A DNA stretch of 44,077 nt, from the IMG/VR virus record IMGVR_UViG_3300046538_000292, positions 1 through 44,077 of that record. One strand, 5' to 3'. Of this stretch, positions 2-44,077 are shown piece by piece (position 1 is the first letter of the stretch; each line of letters opens with the position of its first letter). The notes beneath the pieces are model-generated. The model made no database searches. It was not told the DNA's origin and was given only the letters and a program-made list of their open reading frames with translations. Both the position numbers and the translations under genes were made by a program. Source of the DNA: a virus.

Positions 2-3000
2 TTAGTATCTGTTTTTATTAATTAAGTTTTCATATTCCATTGTCGCATCTTTGACATCCTTCCCGAAGCGAGCGGACTTCACAAAATATCCACGTACACC
101 ATTTTTCTTCAGATAATCTATAACCTGAGTATTTTCTTTGATGATATCCATAGCTTTTACCAAAAGCTCATCACTTCCTGAAGAATTTGTTTGAGTTGGA
201 TATAAACCATTTTCAAAACCTTCTACTCTACGAATTTCATTCATATACATTTTTTGAATACTCGGATCTATTCTTTTCATGGTTTTCCCAGAAACAACCA
301 GTTCCGGCATCGTTGCACCAGCTTCACCCACCAACATCGTTGGTTCGTCATAAATTCCTGTTTTTGATTTTCTACGTCTCGCATTGAACATTTTATTATC
401 CTGTGATCGTAGAACAGGATAAAATCCGTCTTCCGCACCCGGAGCGCTCGGCAATGGTGTATTCATAATTGTTGCTAATTGTACAGCACCCATTGCACCG
501 GCAACGACTGTCATTGCCAAACCTAATGGAAAGAATGGCTGAGTTTGCGCAGCATTAATAACAGCCATAGCAACACCGGATATTGCCTGAGATATCTGCA
601 TCGCTCTTTGTCTTTTGGCTTGCTGATATTCTAGTTGAGCCTTTTTCTTGTCTAATTCTGCATCGATTAAAATCGTTTGCTTTTTATATTCTTCCTGGGT
701 GATAATTCCTGAATCAAGCTGATTCTTCAGCTTTTTCTTTTTCCTATCACTGGCAACCTCCATACGTTGCATCATTCTTTGTTCATTTGCCTGAACAAAA
801 GAAGAATACTGACCAAACATATTCTGAGCGATCTGAACCGCTGCGCCCACCTTTTGAATTTTCTCTGAAAGATTGTCAGTGTTAGTAAACATTGCCTTCC
901 ACTGATCAGGTGTAAGACCAAAAATATCAGCATTACCAGCCCCAAATGAAGATAACTTCCCGCCAAGCTTCTGCTCCTCACCATTCTTTAATTTTGTGAT
1001 CTCAGCAAGTAAAGCAGCTATCTTATCCTTGTAGGTCTGAATGGTTTCAATCTGCTCTGCAGTAATAAATTCCGGAGCGACTTCCGTCATCATTTCGAAC
1101 ATCGCTACCTGGTCCTGAAGAAAGGTCAATTGCTCTTCAAGGCTCTTTTTCTGATAATATTTTTCTATTTCAGCCTTGCCCTGCTCCCAAGTGGTGATCA
1201 TCGCCAAGGTTGCTTCAGAATAGCCTTTACCTTCCAGGAACTTTTTCTGTTTTTCAACAGTATTTGTTTCGGAAACAGTTTGGTTTTGCTCTCTGGTGAT
1301 AAGATTCAAAGACTCCTGCATCGCTTTTTCGCGTTGCTTATAGTCTTCCATCAAATATTTATCATCAAGCTGAAGTAACTTAAAATTGGTTTTCTCTTTT
1401 TCAGCGATCTTGGTATCTTCGATCAACTGATTTTCTTTCAGCCATTGTGCTTTTATAGCTTTGAACTGTTCCTGTAAACCGCCTTTTTCTCTAGCAATGA
1501 TTTTATCAATATCATCGAAGTCAGATTGTTTAACTTTTTGTTTTTCAAGCTCAGCAAGCCTTTTATCCCTTTCAGCGATCAGCATCGACTTTTCTTTATC
1601 GTAGCCGTTTTGCTTTTGTTCCGCTAATGCTGACTGCTTTTGCGCCTCAAGCTCTAGTTCTTTCTGATCATAATTTTCCTGACTCTCAAGAATCTTTTTT
1701 CGCATGGTTTGATAAGCATTTTCAGCTTTTTCCGCAGCTTTCTCAGCATCAGTTTTCTTTTCCTTTTTTTCTTTTGTTCCTAATGGTGTATAATTAGATG
1801 TTTGAGTAGATGAATTATTATTTAATATTTCTTCCGGATTTGCACTGATAAACTTTTTAGTTTCCATGTTCAAATCTTTCATCTCATTAAAATTTGCCCG
1901 GAGTTCATCACGACGTTTTCTATAAGCCTGCGCTACAAGAGGAACATATTTAGAAAGTTCTTTTTCAACAGCCACTGTATTTGCTAAGGCATTCAAGCCT
2001 TTAGCTTCCTCAGTTGACATTTCTCTTTTTAAGTTACCGGAATTCAGTTTTTGCTCAACCCAAGTACCGGCGCCACCAAGATTCATCCAACCTGGTTTAA
2101 TTTCAGCACCTTGCAATTCATACTGTTTTTTGAGTAATTCAGCACGCTTACTACTTAAGACTTCAGCCATTGCTTTTTTATCCAATGCCCTTACATAATC
2201 ATTGATCAGTCTCGTTCCTTCAGCAGTTCGAATATTTTCTAATGTTAAGTTCCCGAGGTATTTTGGTGAAATCTCATTTAACTTTTTGATTGCCTGCAGA
2301 CGATTTTCCTTACTTTGATTTTCATCCTTAGCGATCATCAGAAGATTTTCTAATGCAACCTTTTCATTAACGGTTGCAGAAGTTGCTTTTGTTTTTATCT
2401 CATTCAATAATTTCTCCTTAGCCGCCAACTCATCAGTGTGATCTGCAAATAAAGCATAAGCAGTAACACAGGCCATTACTACAGTTAACAATGCACCCCA
2501 AGGATTAGCTGATGTTACTAAGTTTAATCTTTGTTGAGCAGCAGTCTGCAAAGTTGTACTAGCAGTCAGTCTTCCCAATGCCAAAGTGCTGTACCCAAGA
2601 GAGAGATTCCAAATGTTTTGAACAGCTGCAGCAACCTGATGTCGCAAATTATTAGCTTGCTGGATAATCGAATACGATAAAAGTCTTGCTTTTAAAGTAT
2701 CCAATGTCATTGCACTTAATGCTAAAGCACTGTTATAGGAAATCATAGATACGGTTCCTATCGTGATAATCTTTATCATAAATAGAATGCTATCCTTCAA
2801 CATTGTCACCCTTCCAGTGGTGTCATCAACTACGCCTAACATCTTACCTAATACCGATATGATCCAATTTAGAGACTTTACAACCGTATCACTGCTGAAC
2901 ATTGCTATAAACTTTTTTCTTACTTTTTCGTAAATAGCAGCTGAGTTATTATTAACCTGATCAAATTCTTTTTGTAAAGATGTAGCTTCCGCCAATGCCT

Positions 3001-4576
3001 GGTTGGAGAATTCAATTGACTTTCTAAACTTATCAGTATTCTCCGAAGCCGCACCAATAATAGATATAACTTCATTGTCATTAAGTTTCAGACCATCAAG
3101 TATTGATGCCAGAACAGTAGCATCCAGACCTTTTGCACCTTCAGAAAATTTTAGGAAAAACTGTAAAGGATCCTGATTAAGAAGTGTCTCAACTTCTTTT
3201 TGAGATATGTGCATCACTTGCGCAAACTTTGCTGTATCTGTTGCAGCAACCCTAACAAACTTTGAGTAACCGGAAGAAGCACGTTCAGCATCGATGCCAC
3301 TTTCTTCAAAGGCAGCAGCTAACGCCAACGCTTCAGCAACGGTTGGCTTCAAGGCCTCAGGAAGTTGCCCAATTCTTAAAGTAAAATCTGCCATATTCTC
3401 TTCTGAAGCTGCGCCATTTGCTCCCAATTCGTTTAATGCAGAACCTATTTCATTAATAGCATCTGCATATTCTAAATCTTTGGTTTCCTTGAACAGACCT
3501 TTAATTTTACCAATTTTCTCAGCAACCTTCTCAACACCTCCTGAGAATGAATCTCCTAATGCCACATAAGCTTTATCGACTTCCTGAGTGAAATCTTTGA
3601 TCTCCTGTTTAGGAACTCCCAAACGCCCACCAACTTCAGCAATCTTAAGCAGATCTAATTTACTGGTACGTGTATCAAATTCAGAATAAGCTAACGTCAG
3701 TTCCTTTACTTCATCAGTGGTCATGCCTGTAGTTTTAGCAACTGCAGTCTGAGCATCGGCCATCTTATTGTTAAGATCAATTGTCTGCTGTATACCGACA
3801 GCCATCCCTGTAAGACCTGCAACAAACGCAACAATCATCCCCGAGTACTGATTGAATCTATCAGCCAGGTTACGTAAGGACCAGGCAGACTCTTCAGCAC
3901 CATTAGTCAATTCTCTTATACGAGCGGTCAGTTGCTGATATTCATTCCTCGCCGCGTCCAAACCTTCACCCGCTGCCATGTGCCTCATTGCATACTTCAG
4001 ATCATTTGCCCTCCTGGTCAGCTGATCAATGGTAAGGTTCATGATATTCATTGACCTTACTTCATCATCGATTTTAGTCTTATTCTCACCTATCGCAGTC
4101 TTAGTCTTATCTATTTCTGCTGATAATTCCTTATGCTTGGCGATAGTCTTATTGTAGGTCTCCTGATACTTATTCTGCTCAACGGTCATGCTGGCAATCT
4201 CAGCACTGATAGCCTTTGTAGCTTCCTGAGATTTAACTTTAACCTTATCGATCTTTTGCTGAAGCTTCTCATATTCTTTAGAACCCTGCTCGAATGCAGA
4301 CTGCTGACTTCGTAAGGTCTTCACCTCATTGATCAGAGCCATTTCATTCTCCTTCAGTTTCTCAGTGAGCTTAGCAACACTATTCTTATAGGTATTGAGA
4401 TTCTTTTCTTCAGCTTTACGAACAACTGATAATTCCTTTTCTTTCTGAATAAGATCCTGAAGACGGAAAGACAAGACTTTATTGGCTTGCTCCAAGTCAA
4501 GAACCCGCTTCTGCGCCTCGTCCCCATTGATGACTATCTTGAGCTTGAGTATCTCGTCTGATATAACCTTGGCCAT
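2..4576 (-). CDS. Phage tail tape measure protein (TP901 family)
   Basis: This 1524-aa protein sets tail length by acting as the ruler for tail tube assembly, and it usually contributes to DNA ejection. The first ~190 residues are charged, heptad-like coiled coil. A TP901-type core follows at about 240-560 (Asn/Ala-rich helices with the DLNNKMADAQTAVAKTTGM segment), then hydrophobic stretches near 590-760, a long Lys/Glu/Gln-rich coiled coil from about 940, and a hydrophobic Ala/Gly segment near 1370-1400. The length and the order of parts fit tape measure proteins. It starts at the ATG 17 bp below the -7 box of late promoter 1. It ends with TAA at the left edge of the window, so it is complete, and the remaining tail genes should lie to the left. 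Confidence 0.93.
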   Translation of the reverse strand: MAKVISDEILKLKIVINGDEAQKRVLDLEQANKVLSFRLQDLIQKEKELSVVRKAEEKNLNTYKNSVAKLTEKLKENEMALINEVKTLRSQQSAFEQGSKEYEKLQQKIDKVKVKSQEATKAISAEIASMTVEQNKYQETYNKTIAKHKELSAEIDKTKTAIGENKTKIDDEVRSMNIMNLTIDQLTRRANDLKYAMRHMAAGEGLDAARNEYQQLTARIRELTNGAEESAWSLRNLADRFNQYSGMIVAFVAGLTGMAVGIQQTIDLNNKMADAQTAVAKTTGMTTDEVKELTLAYSEFDTRTSKLDLLKIAEVGGRLGVPKQEIKDFTQEVDKAYVALGDSFSGGVEKVAEKIGKIKGLFKETKDLEYADAINEIGSALNELGANGAASEENMADFTLRIGQLPEALKPTVAEALALAAAFEESGIDAERASSGYSKFVRVAATDTAKFAQVMHISQKEVETLLNQDPLQFFLKFSEGAKGLDATVLASILDGLKLNDNEVISIIGAASENTDKFRKSIEFSNQALAEATSLQKEFDQVNNNSAAIYEKVRKKFIAMFSSDTVVKSLNWIISVLGKMLGVVDDTTGRVTMLKDSILFMIKIITIGTVSMISYNSALALSAMTLDTLKARLLSYSIIQQANNLRHQVAAAVQNIWNLSLGYSTLALGRLTASTTLQTAAQQRLNLVTSANPWGALLTVVMACVTAYALFADHTDELAAKEKLLNEIKTKATSATVNEKVALENLLMIAKDENQSKENRLQAIKKLNEISPKYLGNLTLENIRTAEGTRLINDYVRALDKKAMAEVLSSKRAELLKKQYELQGAEIKPGWMNLGGAGTWVEQKLNSGNLKREMSTEEAKGLNALANTVAVEKELSKYVPLVAQAYRKRRDELRANFNEMKDLNMETKKFISANPEEILNNNSSTQTSNYTPLGTKEKKEKKTDAEKAAEKAENAYQTMRKKILESQENYDQKELELEAQKQSALAEQKQNGYDKEKSMLIAERDKRLAELEKQKVKQSDFDDIDKIIAREKGGLQEQFKAIKAQWLKENQLIEDTKIAEKEKTNFKLLQLDDKYLMEDYKQREKAMQESLNLITREQNQTVSETNTVEKQKKFLEGKGYSEATLAMITTWEQGKAEIEKYYQKKSLEEQLTFLQDQVAMFEMMTEVAPEFITAEQIETIQTYKDKIAALLAEITKLKNGEEQKLGGKLSSFGAGNADIFGLTPDQWKAMFTNTDNLSEKIQKVGAAVQIAQNMFGQYSSFVQANEQRMMQRMEVASDRKKKKLKNQLDSGIITQEEYKKQTILIDAELDKKKAQLEYQQAKRQRAMQISQAISGVAMAVINAAQTQPFFPLGLAMTVVAGAMGAVQLATIMNTPLPSAPGAEDGFYPVLRSQDNKMFNARRRKSKTGIYDEPTMLVGEAGATMPELVVSGKTMKRIDPSIQKMYMNEIRRVEGFENGLYPTQTNSSGSDELLVKAMDIIKENTQVIDYLKKNGVRGYFVKSARFGKDVKDATMEYENLINKNRY

Positions 4577-6681: not shown

Positions 6682-7620
6682 TTAGTTCTTAAAATCACTT
6701 GGAAGTGCGTATATAGGTTTTAATCCTAAAATTGATCGGGCTTTTTGAATATCTCTTATATCTGCAGGAGAGAAATGAATTTTAACAACTTTCAGCTCAT
6801 CACCGATCTTATCTTCAAACTCCTCAATTGTATTACATTCTACAATATAATCTTTTAAAGTGGAAAAATCAACACCAAATGTGTCAACCATTTGCTCAAT
6901 GAAGCTTATTTCTAATAATCTGTTGTCCAGTTTTTTAATATCAATTTTAAGATTCTCATTTTTGATATAACTTTCCGCTACATCCTTATCTTCAAGCAAA
7001 GATGGCAAAGATTTTTCAATATAAGATTTAAGAGTTTCAGTAATAATCTCTAAATCATCAATTTTAGATTCCAACTTTAAAAGTTTTTGACTTTCCGAAC
7101 TTTGACGTAAAAGATCCCTGAAAAGACCTGCCCATTGTAACTTTAAGTATGTAGTTATTTCACTAACATTCTCGAAAGATGAAATTATAATGCCTGCTTT
7201 AATAGCATATATTTCTTCAATAAATTCAAATATTTTGATATTGTCAACAAAACTATATTTCGTCTGTGTTCCTTTGTTTAGTAAATAGGTTTGATATTCA
7301 GAAAAAACACTTCTGTCTACGAAAAGATATACCTGCTTTCCTTCTTTGTAAGCAGTGGTGATCTCTAATTGAGTAATTGAATGTTGATTATCTTTAGAGT
7401 TACTTCCAAATCTATTACCAATGATTCCCACTAATATATCAACTTCCTTTACTTCTTTATAACAATATTCTTCAAGATTTTCCTTCATTCCGTAAGGGAT
7501 GTCTCCAGTCTCGTTACGCACAGGCTCATATCCCAATTCAGTTACAAATCTTTCAATATCAGTTCGTATATGTCTGAGGTCATAAAATGTTGAACTAATA
7601 AATACTCTTGGTTTTGCCAT
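6682..7620 (-). CDS. DUF4062 TIR-like domain protein, candidate defence effector or sensor
   Basis: This is a 312-aa protein. Residues 1-115 match DUF4062, a TIR-like alpha/beta domain. The first strand is PRVFISSTFYDLRHIRTDIE, followed by DILVGIIGNRFGS and then SITQLEITTAYKEGKQVYLFV, whose Glu sits where TIR NADases have their catalytic Glu. Residues about 125-310 are helical and charged with no recognised domain. It lies 9 bp below the gene for a small membrane protein, so the two are probably co-transcribed, and a SIR2 gene lies further upstream. In other proteins the domain is found with signal-transducing or immune NTPase modules. Whether it cleaves NAD is inference. Confidence 0.75.
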   Translation of the reverse strand: MAKPRVFISSTFYDLRHIRTDIERFVTELGYEPVRNETGDIPYGMKENLEEYCYKEVKEVDILVGIIGNRFGSNSKDNQHSITQLEITTAYKEGKQVYLFVDRSVFSEYQTYLLNKGTQTKYSFVDNIKIFEFIEEIYAIKAGIIISSFENVSEITTYLKLQWAGLFRDLLRQSSESQKLLKLESKIDDLEIITETLKSYIEKSLPSLLEDKDVAESYIKNENLKIDIKKLDNRLLEISFIEQMVDTFGVDFSTLKDYIVECNTIEEFEDKIGDELKVVKIHFSPADIRDIQKARSILGLKPIYALPSDFKN

Positions 7621-8205: not shown

Positions 8206-9414
8206 TTACTTTGACAACCTTCTTATTTCATCAAGCTTTAAAGGAATTTCACTGTAATTTTTCACCCAAATTGTTTTTATGCCTAATGAAAGTAAATCTT
8301 TTTCTTCAAATGATTCAAACAAAGCGATTAGGGATTCCACTGTACTTTGCATATCAATGTCTTCAATATTTTCACTAATAACGTTATCTGTTTGGCTCAT
8401 TAAAAATTCAAGCTTATCTTTTACAAAATCAGCATCTTGTTTCAATTTAAAACAATAATGAAATCCTTTACTTTCAGTTCTTTGCTGATTAGCAATATCT
8501 AACAATCTACGCGTATTAGGATCTGTTAATGATACACCTACAAATAAACAATTGTAGTCCCTAAATTTATTAATCTGGACAATATTATTCCAGCTATAAA
8601 TGTCCATATATTGCTTGTGATAAAAATTTTCGCCAAATGTTATTAAATTATTCTCTGCTAAATCTCCTTTTTCTGGTAAGTATCCATGTACATGATAGAT
8701 AGGTAGTTCACCCGCTTCTATATCCTCACTATTTCCAAATATTGCTTTAAAAGGTAGATCGATTGGTAATGCTTTAAGCCTTTCTTCCAGTATATCGTCG
8801 AAATTATAAGTTATGATACTATTAAGATTAGGACTTTTCCCAGGTGAAATACAAAAATTTATTATCTGATCCATAAGAGGAGACTGAACTTCTCTATCAA
8901 TTTCTTTATATAATATGGATCTTACTTCTTCTTCAAAAAGCTTTTTTTGAGATTCGAAATGTTTCTGTAAATATCGTCCAGCAATCAAAGGACTCGGATT
9001 AAAAATTTTTGAAAATAGTGCAGATAAATTTGTTGAGGAATCATCCTTACTATTAATGGACATTACCATAAGTTTTTGTAGTAGTATTTCCCAATTTGGA
9101 AGTCCAAAACCCATTGAAACTCCCGCACCTAAAACAAGAACTAGTTTTTCATCTCTAAAATTATTTTTTAATGTTGACAAATAGTCTTCGCCACCACCAT
9201 AAAATTTACCTCTTAAATTGGTAAGAATATGTTCTATTGATTTATTGAGATCTACAATATCACTTTTTTTAACAACTGTTTTGTAATAATTATTTAGATT
9301 ATTGCTTGGCATGTAATTTCTAGAATATTCTGAATGTATAAGATCGCTAAAAAAATCTGATTCTTTTTTTTCTTTATCATTATTTAGATCAATTTTCTCT
9401 TGATTTCTTGGCAT
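8206..9414 (-). CDS. SIR2-domain protein, probable NADase of a defence system
   Basis: This is a 402-aa protein. After a ~90-residue N-terminal extension it carries SIR2-family NAD-binding motifs: GAGVS (96-100), TYNFD (202-206), HVHG with the active-site-type His (241-244) and GVSLTDPN (293-300). These place it in the SIR2_2-type group whose members deplete NAD during phage infection, not with protein deacetylases, since the zinc-binding Cys residues are absent. It sits between the terminase and tape measure genes, where it has no structural role. It heads a minus-strand group with a membrane protein and a TIR-like protein. A perfect -7 box lies just upstream. Confidence 0.82.
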   Translation of the reverse strand: MPRNQEKIDLNNDKEKKESDFFSDLIHSEYSRNYMPSNNLNNYYKTVVKKSDIVDLNKSIEHILTNLRGKFYGGGEDYLSTLKNNFRDEKLVLVLGAGVSMGFGLPNWEILLQKLMVMSINSKDDSSTNLSALFSKIFNPSPLIAGRYLQKHFESQKKLFEEEVRSILYKEIDREVQSPLMDQIINFCISPGKSPNLNSIITYNFDDILEERLKALPIDLPFKAIFGNSEDIEAGELPIYHVHGYLPEKGDLAENNLITFGENFYHKQYMDIYSWNNIVQINKFRDYNCLFVGVSLTDPNTRRLLDIANQQRTESKGFHYCFKLKQDADFVKDKLEFLMSQTDNVISENIEDIDMQSTVESLIALFESFEEKDLLSLGIKTIWVKNYSEIPLKLDEIRRLSK

Positions 9415-14675: not shown

Positions 14676-14701
14676 AAAAAAGAATGCCCCCGATAAGGGG
14701 C
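14676..14701 (-). terminator. Terminator of the ncRNA
   Basis: GCCCC (14686-14690) pairs with GGGGC (14697-14701) around a 6-nt loop, with a T-run on the minus strand at 14676-14681. It abuts the closing stem of the ncRNA. Confidence 0.75.
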
Positions 14702-14817
14702 TGCTAAGTTATCATAAGAATGATACAGACCTTTCGGTCTCCCCAAATCGAGAGCAATTTATAAAGAATAAATTCTATCGGAACAAAAAAAAGGATTTCT
14801 CCTATGATAACTTAGCA
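14676..14817 (-). ncRNA. Novel structured small RNA, about 142 nt
   Basis: A perfect 15-bp inverted repeat (14702-14716 with 14803-14817) closes the RNA. Inside it are a 3- to 4-bp hairpin with a GAAA loop (14792-14803), a 7-bp AATTTAT/ATAAATT hairpin (14756-14774) and a 5-bp AGACC-GAAA-GGTCT hairpin (14727-14740). Two GNRA tetraloops inside a multiway junction argue for a real folded RNA. A canonical promoter (14821-14850) would start transcription at the foot of the closing stem, and a terminator hairpin stacks on its other side. No open frame of note is present. I cannot place it in a known RNA family. It may serve the phage or the SIR2/HTH cargo beside it. Confidence 0.7.
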
Positions 14818-14820
14818 TTG

Positions 14821-14850
14821 CAAATATACACGTTTTTTGGTAAGCGCAAA
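14821..14850 (-). promoter_or_regulatory. Canonical promoter of the ncRNA
   Basis: Minus strand TTTG (14847-14850), 18 bp, then TATATTTG (14821-14828), both perfect matches to the Bacteroidetes consensus. The T-tract of the preceding terminator provides the -33 element. Confidence 0.8.
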
Positions 14851-14911: not shown

Positions 14912-15121
14912 TTAGAAATCAGCTTTCGCCTCTTCCATTTTTTCTGTAAATTCTTCGATTCCTTTGATGATGGTATTATATTTCTCTTCGCTTATCTGAA
15001 GTTTACCTTTCGAATAATTTCGCAGGTTGGAAGGATCCATTCCGATGTGCCGCGCCAAATCTGAAAGATTGATAAAATATAGTTTCTCAAAAATTGAAAC
15101 AAGTTTTGCTCTGTAATCCAT
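14912..15121 (-). CDS. Small HTH protein downstream of SIR2
   Basis: This is a 69-aa protein. Residues about 17-46 (NLSDLARHIGMDPSNLRNYS and following) match a lambda-repressor-type helix-turn-helix, followed by a helical acidic tail. It begins 35 bp after the stop of the SIR2 gene, and the two share one promoter and one terminator. It is a plausible autoregulator or cofactor of the SIR2 cargo. It could instead control the adjacent ncRNA promoter, which lies directly below. Confidence 0.7.
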   Translation of the reverse strand: MDYRAKLVSIFEKLYFINLSDLARHIGMDPSNLRNYSKGKLQISEEKYNTIIKGIEEFTEKMEEAKADF

Positions 15122-15156: not shown

Positions 15157-16653
15157 CTACGAATATTTTTTAAAGTCATACGCACTTAGAAGTTTTCTAA
15201 AATCAGAAGATGCAGAGTCGCTTACATTGTTACGTAAATAATTTTCAGCATCACTTATTTCTATATTGTCATTCATTAAATTCCAAAACATGCTACTAAC
15301 TTTATGCGTATGAGCAATATTTTCATCTTTCATTATATCTTCAATTGAGAAATTTATTTTTTTTGCTGATTCGATAACTTTTTCAACAAAGGATTTCAAA
15401 TTTTTATCTTGTTGAAGTTTCAGCGATTCAATAGAGCTTAAGTTTGGATTTATTGTTTCAAAACCAAAAATTGGGAAATATTGATTAGATTGAATGTTGT
15501 AATGATCAATACATTCTAATATTTGTGAATTAGCTTCATCAATTATCTCGAAGTACTTTGAAAGTAACTCTTTTGCAGTATGATAATAATATTTGATAGT
15601 CTTGGTAGATCCAATTGCGAGAACCTTATCACTATTATTTAAATCATCCAAATCTTCGGTTATACTTACTTTGATATCGCCTCCTGAAAAAATTTCTTTC
15701 ACAATATTTTGTACTTTTCGAATATCTAACGCACTAACTGGTAAAACTAGATTGGAAATCGCCTCATAAATACGAATAAAATTATCTGTCCTTATTTTAT
15801 TAATTTGAATTGTAAGGTTATTTTGTAGAACTATATCATGTTCAACAACATCTACATCTTGAATATCTTCTCCATATTCTACCAACAGAAAATTTCTTTT
15901 GATTTGTCTCGCTTCTTCAGAATTTGGTTCAACATAAGAAAATATAGTCTTGAGAATTTTTTTCACATTTTCATCTCCAACACCATATCCTATAAAAATT
16001 ATTGGGTTATGAATAAAAAGAGATAACAATTGCGCTCGTATTAGCTCATATCTTTTCTCAAAACCATCATAATCAGATTCTGTAATAATAATTTTATCAG
16101 GATTATCATAACATCCGTGAATTTTGTAGACCGATCCGTATGGATTGCTGAGCAAAATATTATTTCCAATAAGTTTTTGAAATTCAAATATAGACTCAAT
16201 CAAACCATCATAATTTGTTGTAACGATTGAGCCAATATTTTTTCTGATTTTTTTTAAAATTTTTAATTCATTTTCTTTTTCTTCGCGGAATTCTAAAGTT
16301 GAGAATATTTGTGATATATAGATTTTAAATCTGCTCAAACTTATTCCTTCTTCCATCTTTTGATAAAAAACGTCATTTATGTGTTTAAAATTACCATTCC
16401 GGTCATCCTTCAAACTGTTATTGAAATCTCTTTCAATTTCCGTCGCAATTTTTGTATAATCAAAAGAACCGTTAAATTCAAATCGAGATTTTACGTCAAG
16501 ATAATACTCTGTATTCCCAACAAAATCAAAACATATCTTTTTCAATAAACCGTCCCACGTGAACGAGTTTTTTAAATATCTCAAACTAACTCCGGTTCCA
16601 ATAAATAAAACAGGATGGTTTTTATAATGCTGTATAAAATCTTCGATAATCAT
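15157..16653 (-). CDS. SIR2-domain protein with unique C-terminal region, candidate defence NADase
   Basis: This 498-aa protein begins directly with a SIR2 fold: GTGVS (19-23), TTNYD (145-149), KIHG (177-180) and GYGVGDENV (222-230), the NAD-binding and active-site pattern of SIR2_2-type defence NADases. Zinc-ribbon Cys residues are absent, so deacetylase function is unlikely. Residues about 300-498 are helical and unmatched to any domain I know, and are probably the sensor or oligomerisation part. It is not closely similar to the other SIR2 protein in this window apart from the motifs. Its own -7 box lies in the 66-bp gap upstream, and an HTH gene follows. It interrupts the connector/tail genes, so it is best read as cargo. 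Confidence 0.82.
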   Translation of the reverse strand: MIIEDFIQHYKNHPVLFIGTGVSLRYLKNSFTWDGLLKKICFDFVGNTEYYLDVKSRFEFNGSFDYTKIATEIERDFNNSLKDDRNGNFKHINDVFYQKMEEGISLSRFKIYISQIFSTLEFREEKENELKILKKIRKNIGSIVTTNYDGLIESIFEFQKLIGNNILLSNPYGSVYKIHGCYDNPDKIIITESDYDGFEKRYELIRAQLLSLFIHNPIIFIGYGVGDENVKKILKTIFSYVEPNSEEARQIKRNFLLVEYGEDIQDVDVVEHDIVLQNNLTIQINKIRTDNFIRIYEAISNLVLPVSALDIRKVQNIVKEIFSGGDIKVSITEDLDDLNNSDKVLAIGSTKTIKYYYHTAKELLSKYFEIIDEANSQILECIDHYNIQSNQYFPIFGFETINPNLSSIESLKLQQDKNLKSFVEKVIESAKKINFSIEDIMKDENIAHTHKVSSMFWNLMNDNIEISDAENYLRNNVSDSASSDFRKLLSAYDFKKYS

Positions 16654-33603: not shown

Positions 33604-34296
33604 CTAGCTGATTTTGCAGTAATGACGTAATAATTCAACTAATAAATAAACTTTAGTAACCGGACATGATCCACTGGGTGGGTTACCAGATGCCGTATGA
33701 TGATTATCTAAATTTTTAGCCCAATTAATTGCTCTTACAACATCACCTTTTTCATTTAAAAATTTGATAACTTTTGGATCATTTTTTTGATATCTAAAAC
33801 CAAGCCTTCGTGATAGAATTTTTATGTAATCATCTCTATGAATAGCTGTTTGCAAATTATCAAAATGCAAAACATACCATAGCTCAAATGATTGATTTGA
33901 ATAAGCGCATTTTATTTCTTCTGCAGTAGCTGCATTTATTGCATTATCGAAATTTGCAGGTGGAAAGTCGTCCTTATCGAAAACAGCCCAAATTTCATTA
34001 AAGTTTGGTAATATTGGATCATTGATTCTTTCATTTTTTAATTCAGTAGCTCTATTAACTATATTCATTGTATTATCACCTTCTCCTACAACATGAATTG
34101 TTTTCACTAAATGTCTAGGTAATAAATTCTTATAGTAATCGAAATATAGAGGTTCAGTCTTTTCGCCCTCACATACAATAAGAAAATACTGCAATTCTTG
34201 ACGAGAGTCTACTTCCACTGGTTTAGTTACCGAAGATGCTTTTAGTTCTGCAACTAAATCAGCAAATGATAATTCACTATTCTTTTTCTTCGCCAT
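33604..34296 (-). CDS. RloB-like protein (AbiLii-type)
   Basis: This is a 230-aa protein. The RloB domain covers most of it: QYFLIVCEGEKTEPLYFDYY with the toprim-type Glu (about 31-50), EIWAVFDKDDFP with the Asp pair (about 106-117) and SNQSFELWYVLHF (about 134-146). The toprim-like fold is shared with nucleases, and the partner AAA ATPase gene overlaps its start by 20 nt. The pair corresponds to AbiLi/AbiLii, an abortive infection system in which the ATPase and RloB act together. A basic N-terminus precedes the domain. Activity has not been shown here. Confidence 0.8.
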   Translation of the reverse strand: MAKKKNSELSFADLVAELKASSVTKPVEVDSRQELQYFLIVCEGEKTEPLYFDYYKNLLPRHLVKTIHVVGEGDNTMNIVNRATELKNERINDPILPNFNEIWAVFDKDDFPPANFDNAINAATAEEIKCAYSNQSFELWYVLHFDNLQTAIHRDDYIKILSRRLGFRYQKNDPKVIKFLNEKGDVVRAINWAKNLDNHHTASGNPPSGSCPVTKVYLLVELLRHYCKIS

Positions 34297-35554
34297 TGCT
34301 AAAAACGCTTTCTAAATCATCAATAAAAGGAATTCCGCCATATTTGCCATCTAAATAATTTTTGTCAAATGGTGTCTCTTTTCTTGGCTTGAACTCGGCC
34401 AAGGTAGTAACATTTGTAGCGCCAAAAATATCTTTATCTACAAAATATATTTGATCTCTTCGCAAAATATCTCTACTAATTAATGAAGTATCATGACTAG
34501 CAACAATTAATTGAGCTTTAGTTTTGATTTTATCAGAATTAAACAATTTTATAATAGCTTTTGATAATAACGAATGTAATCTTGCATCAAATTCATCAAT
34601 AATTATCGGTCTTCCTTCTTTAATGGCTACTATTAAGAGACCTACAAGTCTAAAATATTTTTTTGTTCCTTCCGATTCTGCACTCATAAAAGAAAAGTTT
34701 TCAATGCCACTTTTCTTATCATTATCATAAACATCATGAGCTGATAATATTGCTACAGGTTTCCTTTTTTCAAATTGTATTTTGAATCTTTCCCTCATCT
34801 CTTCAGGAATTTTATCCTTAATTTCATCAAAGGTTATCGGAGCATCAAGAATATCAACATGGTTTATTCCTAGGTCTGCTTTTTTAATGAACGCCTGAAT
34901 AATTTCAACATACTTATTGTCCTTCATCAAATCGATTGTCATATCACGATAATCCCCGTCATTGATACCATGCACATTAAATATTTTACCAATATATTGA
35001 TCAATCTTTTGTGCTTTCGAAACGTTCCATTGCGATGCTACGGAAAGAAATAAAGCGTTTTTACGTGTCCTTTTTTGTAATCCTTCTGCATCCTCAAAAT
35101 ATTTATTATCAATTTTAATCTCTTGATTTATTCTTATAAATAACAACTTTTCAGTTGTAGAACCTTCAAATAGCCACTCTTTATGAACTTTATTAGTATC
35201 AGTCTCAAAACCATATCTAAAGGTAGTAGTACCAACAATAAAAGTTAATTCAAATAGTGATGGTTTTTTTGCAGTTTGCTTAGATAATTTGAATGATTGG
35301 AGATCCATTCTATCATCAACAGCCCTTTTCAAAGTGGATTCAAGTATAAATTCTTGAAAAAAATTGAAAGCGTCTAAAATCTTTGATTTTCCGCTAGCAT
35401 TAGGACCATAGAGCAATATTGTTTTTAAAATTTGTCTCGAACCATTTTCAATTACATTACTTTCCCTATGTTCTGTCAGAGAAGTAGCGTTAAAATTTAG
35501 GATTATAGGATCTTTTATAGATTTGTAATTTCCTACTTTAAAAGATATTATCAT
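34277..35554 (-). CDS. AAA ATPase of the AbiL-like system (AbiLi-type)
   Basis: This 425-aa protein is of the AAA15/AAA21 ABC-like group: the N-terminus MIISFKVGNYKSIKD, Walker A GPNASGKS at 50-57, a signature-type ESEGTKKYF region, Walker B PIIIDEFDARLH, and an ASHD switch His. Such OLD-like ATPases act with RloB in abortive infection. I start at the ATG at 35554, where the family pattern begins. Two upstream starts exist, the first of them a TTG that lies inside the -7 box. The cassette has its own promoter and terminator and lies in the noncoding region between the replication and tail modules. Confidence 0.82.
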   Translation of the reverse strand: MIISFKVGNYKSIKDPIILNFNATSLTEHRESNVIENGSRQILKTILLYGPNASGKSKILDAFNFFQEFILESTLKRAVDDRMDLQSFKLSKQTAKKPSLFELTFIVGTTTFRYGFETDTNKVHKEWLFEGSTTEKLLFIRINQEIKIDNKYFEDAEGLQKRTRKNALFLSVASQWNVSKAQKIDQYIGKIFNVHGINDGDYRDMTIDLMKDNKYVEIIQAFIKKADLGINHVDILDAPITFDEIKDKIPEEMRERFKIQFEKRKPVAILSAHDVYDNDKKSGIENFSFMSAESEGTKKYFRLVGLLIVAIKEGRPIIIDEFDARLHSLLSKAIIKLFNSDKIKTKAQLIVASHDTSLISRDILRRDQIYFVDKDIFGATNVTTLAEFKPRKETPFDKNYLDGKYGGIPFIDDLESVFSNGEEKE

Positions 35555-35593
35555 ACTTATGTAGATTATCCGCATACTTACGGAATTATCATA

Positions 35594-35601
35594 CAAAAGT
35601 A
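35594..35601 (-). promoter_or_regulatory. -7 box of the AbiL-like cassette
   Basis: Minus strand TACTTTTG, a perfect TAnnTTTG, 39 bp before the ATG at 35554. The -33 element is not a clear TTTG. CGCATAA repeats upstream (35614 and 35633) could be operator parts. Confidence 0.6.
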
Positions 35602-42514: not shown

Positions 42515-44077
42515 TTATATGAACCCTGTCGAGGTCACAAGACCGACATTTGAAGTTTTTTCACTTCTTTGTCGGTTTTTTTTATTCCCTAACTCTTTGT
42601 TAATCAAGGCGATATTACCAGCAAGACTGTTGATTTTTGTGGTTTGAAAATACTCACCGTCGAAAGTTAACTTTTCAGGATATATCAAACCAACAATTGC
42701 GCGCTTGTCAATTGTACTTGCGTTATTATATCTTTCAGAGATGTTGACAATGGCATTTAATGCTTGAGTCATCTTCTTCTCAATATCATCAGTATGACCA
42801 GAATTTTTTAATGAATTTAATTTAAAGTTGATATCTTCAATTTCCACTTTATACTTCATTTTAATTCTCTTAAAATCTTCTTCATCCAATTTATCTTCAA
42901 GATACATATCTCTTGCTTTGTCAATTCTTCCTTCAATAGCATTAAGTTTATTTTGCAAAACCTTTCTCTCATCATTTAGACCATTTGAAACTATTGAAAA
43001 GTTCTGTTCTAAAATTGTTTTCAATATTTTCTCAGCACCGATGCTGAATCTAAATTTTGATAATTCTTCGACAAAAAGATCATTAACTATTTCAGAATTA
43101 TGCCTGAAACCACATGAGGTTGTACAATGGTAATAATAGTAATGCTTGCTTCTTCCCTTAGCACTACTGGCAGTAAGAGTTTTATTGCATTGTGGGCATA
43201 ATAGTAATCCCCTCAAAGGATAACGTTCTTCATTTATTATCCTTCCTGCTGGTAAGAAAGCATCCTTATTACTTTTACGATGAAGAACCCTTTGAACTTT
43301 CATGAAAAGTTCTTCAGAGATCAGTGCTTCATGTTTTCCTTCAACAATTTTTTCCTCCTCATCGTTATATGCCTTTAGAAATAATTTTCCGCAGTACGCT
43401 ATATTTCTCAAACCATCCATAAATGAATTTTTCGTCAGCTTTCTGCCTTCTCTCCTGTTCATTTCTTTTAAAATAACTGCTGTAGGTAGATGTCCTTTCG
43501 CCACCTGCTTAAAGGCCCATATCATGTTTGTTGCTTCAGGTTCTTTAACCGCTACATACTTACGGCCGTCCTGTGTACATCTGTTAATATAGCCATATGG
43601 AGCGATACCCATCATTCTACCCTCTTTAATCGCTCTTCTCATCCCATACGTCACATTCAATGCCCTCCTGTCATTTTCCACCTCAGGCGTGGATAAATAT
43701 ATTGCTAACAAAAGTTTATTTTCGGGTACACGTAAATCTAACGGTTGTTCAATAGCCTGAGGTGTAATACACAATTTATTAAGGTTGGATATCATCTGAT
43801 AAGCCTCACTGGTATTACGGCTAAATCGATCCCATTTTGTGAAAAATAAGAATTTGTTTTGTCTAGAACCTCTTCCTTTTCTAATACTAAAAAGGTATTT
43901 TTTCCATTCAGGCCTCTCAAAAGTTTTGGCAGAATGATCTTCATAAATAATTTTGTCAATCGTTATGTTCAGAGAAGAACAATGTTTGCGTAAACGCTCT
44001 TCCTGATCACGTTGTGAATACCCTTTATCTGCTTGTTCGTCAGTTGACACGCGAATATATAAATCAGCAACTTTCAT
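42515..44077 (-). CDS. Large serine recombinase (phage integrase)
   Basis: This is a 520-aa protein. The N-terminal resolvase domain has YIRVSTDEQ with catalytic Ser11 and the Arg-rich WDRFSRN part. The recombinase domain begins near 150 (IAPYGYI). A zinc ribbon with CPQCN and HCTTSCG lies near 295-330, and coiled coil follows at about 355-440. Such enzymes integrate phage DNA at one site and need an excision factor. The frame starts at the right edge of the window, so the upstream region and att site are not seen. Its last ~20 codons overlap the repressor terminator and look like non-native sequence (SNVGLVTSTGFI), so the true end may lie upstream or at an att junction. Confidence 0.92.
   Translation of the reverse strand: MKVADLYIRVSTDEQADKGYSQRDQEERLRKHCSSLNITIDKIIYEDHSAKTFERPEWKKYLFSIRKGRGSRQNKFLFFTKWDRFSRNTSEAYQMISNLNKLCITPQAIEQPLDLRVPENKLLLAIYLSTPEVENDRRALNVTYGMRRAIKEGRMMGIAPYGYINRCTQDGRKYVAVKEPEATNMIWAFKQVAKGHLPTAVILKEMNRREGRKLTKNSFMDGLRNIAYCGKLFLKAYNDEEEKIVEGKHEALISEELFMKVQRVLHRKSNKDAFLPAGRIINEERYPLRGLLLCPQCNKTLTASSAKGRSKHYYYYHCTTSCGFRHNSEIVNDLFVEELSKFRFSIGAEKILKTILEQNFSIVSNGLNDERKVLQNKLNAIEGRIDKARDMYLEDKLDEEDFKRIKMKYKVEIEDINFKLNSLKNSGHTDDIEKKMTQALNAIVNISERYNNASTIDKRAIVGLIYPEKLTFDGEYFQTTKINSLAGNIALINKELGNKKNRQRSEKTSNVGLVTSTGFI
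42541..42583 (+). terminator. Terminator of the repressor gene, inside the recombinase 3' end
   Basis: CCGACA (42543-42548) pairs with TGTCGG (42570-42575), GAAGT with ACTTC inside, and eight T follow. It points in the direction of the repressor gene. Confidence 0.8.

Follow-up and report, generated by a model that had tools for sequence, protein, structure and literature searches.

Results

A Small RNA Gene Directly Precedes o106

The window, by which we mean the whole 44,077-nt stretch of DNA analyzed, is that of a Chryseobacterium-type temperate tailed phage, with a serine recombinase (42515-44077) and a tape-measure-like protein (2-4576). Comparison of the window DNA with annotated phages revealed no similarity; its terminase and head genes relate it to the Duneviridae (Flavobacterium phages 6H and laban, and Cellulophaga phage Ingeline). 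A small RNA of ~142 nt lies at 14817-14676 on the minus strand and is followed on that strand by the small genes o106, o84, and o60:

14850-14821 (-), promoter of the Bacteroidota type: TTTG at 14850-14847, N18, and TATATTTG at 14828-14821
14817-14803 (-), segment A, with which the RNA begins and which forms the 5′ side of the closing stem: UGCUAAGUUAUCAUA, a perfect 15-bp complement of A′
14716-14702 (-), segment A′, the 3′ arm of the closing stem and the putative antisense segment (from its complementarity and its unpaired probability): UAUGAUAACUUAGCA
14701-14676 (-), terminator: GCCCCUUAUCGGGGGC followed by AUUCUUUUUU
14685-14676 (-), U-rich end of this intrinsic terminator: AUUCUUUUUU
14650-14330 (-), o106, the presumed regulated gene (106 aa), whose homologues with an intact start are always preceded by such an RNA
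14358-14104 (-), o84, second of the small genes in the module and conserved downstream of o106 in L006, L007, L086, L012, L010, L014, and L013
14111-13929 (-), o60, a small acidic protein with the motif GSLW...LVLVDDD (PHROG 38077)

The A·A′ closing stem is a perfect 15-bp helix, and 14823-14676 (-) folds with -49.9 kcal/mol, compared to -30 +/- 4 kcal/mol for dinucleotide shuffles (z = -5.0; 0 of 200 as good). Segments A and A′ change together in relatives. An exact TAnnTTTG ending 3-5 nt 5′ of the stem foot was found in 24 of 29 related RNAs, compared to 0.6% at random positions, so that, at the sequence level, a start of transcription at the stem foot is conserved; before the downstream ATG the same motif was found in 0 of 29 loci. 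The terminator ends 26 nt from the o106 ATG, on the same strand. A preliminary description of this DNA had proposed that the locus is a complete RNA gene, closed by a perfect 15-bp stem, with a TTTG-N18-TATATTTG promoter placing the start at the stem foot and its own terminator. Stem, promoter, and terminator were all confirmed, and promoter, closing stem, and terminator are conserved. Structure and promoter conservation are supported by comparison of relatives, and the RNA is presumably transcribed.

The same description had placed the RNA between a SIR2-HTH cargo unit and head-tail genes. Our comparison links it with the downstream o106, which is followed by o84-o60 and then by the terminase cluster, and not with the SIR2-HTH unit. 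Related loci were gathered with the terminase as guide; the SIR2 protein, used in the same way, yielded no close relatives. In two of these loci, L086 (a prophage of Chryseobacterium caseinilyticum GCR10; RNA 88% identical) and L012 (RNA 77% identical), the RNA stands directly before o106 and there is no SIR2 gene, which argues against a SIR2-tied defense RNA. No reverse transcriptase, as would mark a retron, was found among the Pfam and PHROG matches of the neighboring genes.

A small HTH protein (14912-15121 (-)) lies between SIR2 and the RNA; it is beside the RNA in L086, which is without SIR2, and elsewhere in L009-L013. There are two different SIR2_2-domain proteins (8206-9414 and 15157-16653 (-)) and a DUF4062 protein (6682-7620), which are probably defense cargo at two sites. 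An RloB-like protein adjoins an AAA (AbiEii-like) ATPase (33604-35596 (-)), probably as a defense pair.

A Second Conserved Fold Contains a C4-like Core

The minimum-energy structure of the whole RNA hides a second conserved fold, in which the terminator strand pairs back to form a C4-like core of 76 nt:

14757-14682 (-), C4-like core, aligned over its full length to Rfam RF02944 (c4-2)
14755-14741 (-), segment B, the 5′ strand of P1: outer part 14755-14747 GCUCUCGAU, inner part 14744-14741 GGGG; pairs with B′
14739-14728 (-), P2 hairpin, GACC-GAAA-GGUC, aligned to the GAAA hairpin of Rfam c4-2
14725-14710 (-), P3 hairpin, UAUCAU-UCUU-AUGAUA, from the core fold; the 5′ part of A′ forms its 3′ half
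14700-14686 (-), segment B′, the 3′ strand of P1: inner part CCCC 14700-14697, outer part AUCGGGGGC 14694-14686

The B·B′ helix (P1), which has a conserved internal-loop break, joins the inner segment to the terminator strand and is missing from the minimum-energy fold of the full RNA. It is present in all 29 curated loci, where cognate strands pair with -23.1 kcal/mol compared to -13.5 kcal/mol for swapped strands (0 of 20,000 permutations as good), and compensatory changes in its outer part are seen in L086 and L101. Segment B′ can alternatively form a local terminator hairpin. Simultaneous formation of A·A′ and B·B′ would give the order A, B, A′, B′, a pseudoknot, and the two helices are therefore either coaxial or alternative.

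Two GAAA hairpins had been noted at the outset. The second, P2, is indeed conserved as a hairpin, its loop being UUCG in L012 and other stem-loops occurring in L100, L006, and L007; the first is not a conserved tetraloop (GGACACAAUCC in L086). In P3, L101 shows an A-U to G-C exchange (AUCGU/ACGAU). The isolated window core folds as three stems in which the bases ACUUAGCA within A′ are unpaired with a mean probability of 0.91. The corresponding values are 0.80-0.91 in the cores of the five window-type RNAs (the window, L086, L012, L101, and L100), and in the L006, L010, L023, L084, and L096 subfamilies these bases are not clearly unpaired in the predicted core. In the predicted window core, the eight bases would occupy a single-stranded loop where the b′ loop of C4 lies.

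The Exposed Bases Are Complementary to the Start of o106

The end of A′ is complementary to the start region of o106, and the pattern recurs in relatives:

14709-14702 (-), antisense run, the last 8 nt of A′: ACUUAGCA, complementary to the o106 start region
14649-14642 (-), target A″: UGCUAAGU, starting at the U of the AUG of o106 and reaching into codons 2-3, co-varying with A′
A′/A″ complementarity pattern in the window: AUGCUAAGU
A′/A″ complementarity pattern in L012: AUGCGACAA
A′/A″ complementarity pattern in L101: AUGCUACAA
A′/A″ complementarity pattern in L100: AUGCUAAACAAUCA
A′/A″ complementarity pattern in L006 and L007: AUGACUCAC
A′/A″ complementarity pattern in L010: AUGCGAAACGUAAC
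A′/A″ complementarity pattern in L014: AUGUCAAACACAACC
A′/A″ complementarity pattern in L013: AUGCGAAACUCAACAAUC

In every intact o106 locus A″ co-varies with A′, and the allele sequences differ between phages. Over ten alleles tested, 80 of 80 pairs in the 8-bp duplex are Watson-Crick, with compensatory change at all eight positions, compared to a mean of 52% in a shuffled-partner control; because the o106 loci were chosen via the protein and not the RNA, this result is not circular. In the allele count, the register set by hand for the L006 A·A′ helix was wrong (the true pairing is UGACUCAUCG/CGGUGAGUCA), which lowered the count for that helix. For the 29 curated loci, cognate A′·A″ duplexes have a mean of -17.6 kcal/mol compared to -7.6 kcal/mol for swapped duplexes (0 of 20,000 permutations as good), a figure that is partly circular since many of these loci were found by A′·A″ complementarity; the B·B′ helix and the TAnnTTTG promoter are features outside the locus-finding criteria. 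Covariation among homologues, which had been suggested as a check on the RNA, is evident: A changes together with A′, and compensatory changes occur in A′·A″, B·B′, and P2.

The two possible partners of A′ are not equivalent. Across the A″ run there are 59 positions at which A departs from the ideal partner of A′ (G·U or mismatch) and A″ matches, a one-way count with the reverse case outside it. In L006, L010, L014, and L013, G·U in A·A′ corresponds to G-C in A′·A″. Where A and A″ differ within this run, A″ is thus the better partner of A′, and selection appears to act on RNA-mRNA pairing and not on repeated DNA. The length of the match varies. The window antisense is a single 8-nt run, and runs of 12-18 nt occur in L010, L013, L092, L030, and L031; in the 6H-type subgroup the A′·A″ match is short (7-8 nt) and several cognate duplexes are not ranked first. 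Pairing split into a and b parts is found only in canonical c4-2 loci.

The antisense segment is flanked by two copies of the target, A (14817-14803) and A″ (14649-14642), and the same is true of the relatives. Segment A may be a seqA-like second target or sequestering arm. In the whole RNA the 15-bp A·A′ helix is more stable than the 8-bp A′·A″ duplex, and the cofolding gain is -1.5 kcal/mol with A present and -3.2 kcal/mol for the processed core. Repression in trans would therefore need processing, cotranscriptional kinetics, or help. C4 is matured by RNase P.

The RNA Is Linked to o106

Homologues of o106 were found by protein similarity or by profile search of 323 host-family genomes, and all 12 that have an intact start carry such an RNA directly upstream, in the same place although its sequence can be unrelated. 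Four o106 fragments (L008/L087, L102, and L103) lack the RNA as well as the 5′ end of the gene; here, RNA and o106 start seem to have been lost or replaced together.

The predicted o106 structure has the order a-b-b-b-a (low-to-moderate confidence; pLDDT 73). A structure search with this model gave no match at E <= 0.001, and a profile search of PDB sequences gave none either. Matches to dsRNA-binding domains (Dicer), to Acb4, and to a Tad2-like protein, at E 0.03-2 only, are leads from which no function is claimed. The o106 sequence is not that of a short hydrophobic peptide. Pfam and PHROG indicated no function for o106, o84, or o60, and profile comparison of the other small ORFs with o84 and o106 gave one weak link, between o84 and an L075 ORF.

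The o60 protein recurs 1-3 genes downstream of such RNAs. Its domain (GSLW...LVDDD) can stand alone or be part of a longer protein (L023:15600-16004, L084:16139-16561, and L030:21161-21547), and in 6H-type phages it is encoded directly before the tape-measure gene, the usual site of tail assembly chaperones.

Similar RNAs Occur in Other Bacteroidota Phages

All loci were scanned for the arrangement A...A′...ATG-A″. This gave 34 hits with a score >= 18, near-duplicates and some false hits among them, compared to 3 in a control of reversed and opposite strands with twice the amount of sequence. Hits L021, L076, L067, L068, and L088:7031 were discarded, being within coding sequence or without RNA features. 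The genuine loci lie in many Duneviridae-like phages, at other genome positions and with different small ORFs downstream; they include 6H/1H, laban, Ingeline, a Kordia prophage, and a Bacteroidales prophage. In 6H-type phages the RNA is found ahead of the tape-measure gene and remote from the terminase. In one locus (L018:11531-13467) there are three tandem copies of RNA plus small ORF, two with o60 behind them, with three different sets of A/A′/A″, as would be expected for antisense pairs that do not cross-react. The exact stem pattern had no match in viral contigs, because the stem changes between phages. In 6H, Ingeline, and BT-TP2, inspection by eye of the gaps beside the o282 homologue revealed nothing; the RNAs of these phages are located elsewhere.

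A match to a known RNA family had been named as an argument against the original proposal, and here the outcome is divided. At gathering thresholds, Rfam gave 0 matches in the window and six relatives. The window nevertheless aligns to the full length of c4-2 (RF02944; model 1-79/79) with 19.9 bits (E 0.004 in the 44-kb record), below the gathering threshold of 41 bits and with some nonstandard pairs near the second small hairpin. A phage 1H-type relative, L023, scores 49.4 bits, above the cut-off, and L069 (35.7), L066 (35.5), L025 (31.7), L075 (31.2), and L022 (25.3) have matches at or near the RNA positions found independently. For genomes G001 (4.3 Mb) and G317, the search at E <= 1 gave a single c4-2 match each, and in both it is the window-type RNA preceding o106. 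Other low-score Rfam matches (ncr1015, STnc370, Phe_leader, and so on) were set aside as chance, lying off the core or on the other strand.

Above-threshold c4-2 RNAs occur in 14 of 100 host-family genomes. Canonical c4-2 loci have the order promoter-A-core-A″-ATG in at least 8 of 10 read, with the target just before the ATG. In the canonical c4-2 loci L104-L111, the 5′ end of the RNA carries UUCCUAA, which is invariant, and a variable stretch of 7-9 nt, and both recur just before the ATG; together, the invariant and variable parts are complementary to a split segment of the c4-2 core. In the literature searched, no paper on c4-2 function was found, and the targets of c4-2 may have been described before.

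Discussion

We propose that the RNA is a divergent, C4/c4-2-like antisense repressor of o106 with the seqA-seqB-seqC layout of phage P4, a reading to which we assign a probability of about 0.8. Comparison of relatives supports its structure, the conservation of its promoter, the persistence of A′·A″ complementarity through sequence change, and the link to o106; repression, the sign of regulation, readthrough, and a role in immunity we infer. A transcript from the RNA's own promoter would begin at segment A, fold, and terminate. In the C4-like form (P1 from B·B′, the P2 GAAA hairpin, and P3), A′ would be exposed and could pair with the first o106 codons (A″), blocking translation initiation. 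Segment A would hold A′ closed, might tune or free it, and would be a second copy of the target like seqA of P4. A promoter-like site before o106 was found in none of 29 loci, and o106 is therefore probably expressed by terminator readthrough, which could come from the RNA's own promoter or from the late operon. With o106 read in this way, the RNA could target both the nascent transcript it is part of and, in trans, other copies. The allele specificity of A/A′/A″ would then make an immunity-type switch, by which a resident prophage could silence superinfecting phages only when they share its allele. Differing A alleles in similar phages and in tandem copies are what is expected if the RNA acts in trans without cross-reaction, as in P1/P7 heteroimmunity.

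The preliminary description had left the RNA as a regulator, a defense or antidefense RNA, or a packaging RNA, with no evidence separating these. This is superseded, as A′·A″ complementarity points to a regulator and makes that option specific, namely an antisense RNA to the start codon of the next gene. A defense or antidefense function for the SIR2-HTH unit, or one in packaging, now seems scarcely credible even though the RNA adjoins SIR2 and the terminase cluster is three genes on, since the RNA is kept in the absence of SIR2 in L086 and L012, the only tie to the terminase is operon position (and 6H-type RNAs are remote from it), and neither function explains complementarity to a gene start. 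It is also very improbable that A, A′, and A″ work at the DNA level as repeated operator or recombination sites: there are three TGCTAAGT copies in the right orientation, and phage operators do diversify between immunity groups, but A often departs from A″ exactly where G·U with A′ is kept (L006, L010, L014, and L013), which is RNA logic, and B·B′, P2, and P3 co-vary as RNA helices.

The remaining alternatives also invoke an RNA. The most serious, which we regard as possible though doubtful, is a cis-acting attenuator, in which the o106 operon has this RNA as its 5′ leader, the RNA itself does not act in trans, and the terminator and the choice of A·A′ or A′·A″ set o106 transcription or translation in response to a protein or to ribosome state. 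The short same-strand distance to the ATG, the missing o106 promoter, and the mutual exclusivity of A·A′ and A′·A″ (as of B·B′ and the local terminator hairpin in the window type) would all suit such a leader. However, C4 and P4 CI do both at once, so that this explanation overlaps the antisense one; the resemblance to c4-2 argues for an RNA capable of acting in trans, and no conserved sequence resembling a ligand pocket was seen across subfamilies. We consider a type I toxin-antitoxin pair, with o106 (or o84/o60) toxic and the RNA its antitoxin, unlikely. Small ORFs without assigned function under an adjacent antisense RNA, and tandem L018 copies differing in A, are reminiscent of such pairs, but the proteins are not short hydrophobic peptides, o106 has no toxin match, and the controlled gene varies between phages with the RNA layout constant. 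Activation as by IsrK, in which the terminated short RNA would use A to pair with A′ of the readthrough mRNA and so free the o106 start, is quite unlikely. Segment A does duplicate A″ and form the RNA 5′ end, and strand exchange has a precedent in IsrK (PMC4825925); yet 15 bp already hold A to A′ in the terminated RNA, and no 5′ RNA lacking A′ is predicted.

The C4 and P4 CI types of antisense immunity RNA were worked out in Proteobacteria phages. Sequence evidence now places a related, mostly subthreshold class in Bacteroidota phages (Duneviridae relatives) and points to a probable target, the start codon of the next gene. The RNA is not a one-off but most likely a divergent variant of the C4/c4-2 phage antisense class, whose probable target is identified by covariation. 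With a readable A′/A″ code, the target and putative immunity group of each phage become predictable, and o106, o84, and o60 are flagged as genes worth silencing strictly. More tentatively, such RNAs might be widespread, allele-specific "lock and key" switches of Bacteroidota phages, made from one promoter, toggling between A·A′ and a C4-like B·B′ form with A′ exposed, silencing the start codon of the small gene that follows, and defining heteroimmunity groups among phages that are alike in other respects, even between tandem copies in a single phage.

By the curated threshold the RNA is not filed as a member of c4-2, and its mechanism is most likely like that of C4 and P4 CI. It shares with Rfam c4-2 (RF02944; C4 clan CL00128) the order P1/P2/P3, the GAAA hairpin, the U-rich 3′ end, and Bacteroidota hosts. 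It differs in that its target covers the AUG and first codons, where that of c4-2 lies just before the ATG, in its uninterrupted 15-bp A·A′ stem, which in c4-2 is split into a and b parts, and in an extra hairpin after A. The antisense action of C4 of P1/P7 and of CI of P4 is known from experiment (PMC5320573, PMC4825925, PMC12197685), and in C4 it is the b′ loop that covers the target's initiation region (PMC5320573). Like C4 (RF01695), the window RNA has three stems and lies immediately upstream of its target, on the strand of that target, with a loop (b′ in C4) complementary to the initiation region of the next small ORF and with specificity that varies between close relatives (P1 versus P7). 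Unlike C4, it is of unrelated sequence, it has its own intrinsic terminator and a Bacteroidota promoter, and no antirepressor (ant) was recognized downstream of it in the window. IsrK/anrP of Salmonella prophage Gifsy-1 is likewise a prophage leader RNA with a terminator and rearrangeable strands that control the next ORF; IsrK uses strand exchange and is described as a structural homologue of the P4 seqA RNA (PMC4825925), but it activates, and its structure and sequence differ. In phage P4 the topology is seqA-CI(seqB)-seqC (PMC4825925), to which A-A′-A″ corresponds, with a target copy before and after the antisense. The genes controlled are unrelated, and pairing in P4 leads to premature termination, whereas A″ in the window covers the start codon, so that blocked initiation is the simplest reading.
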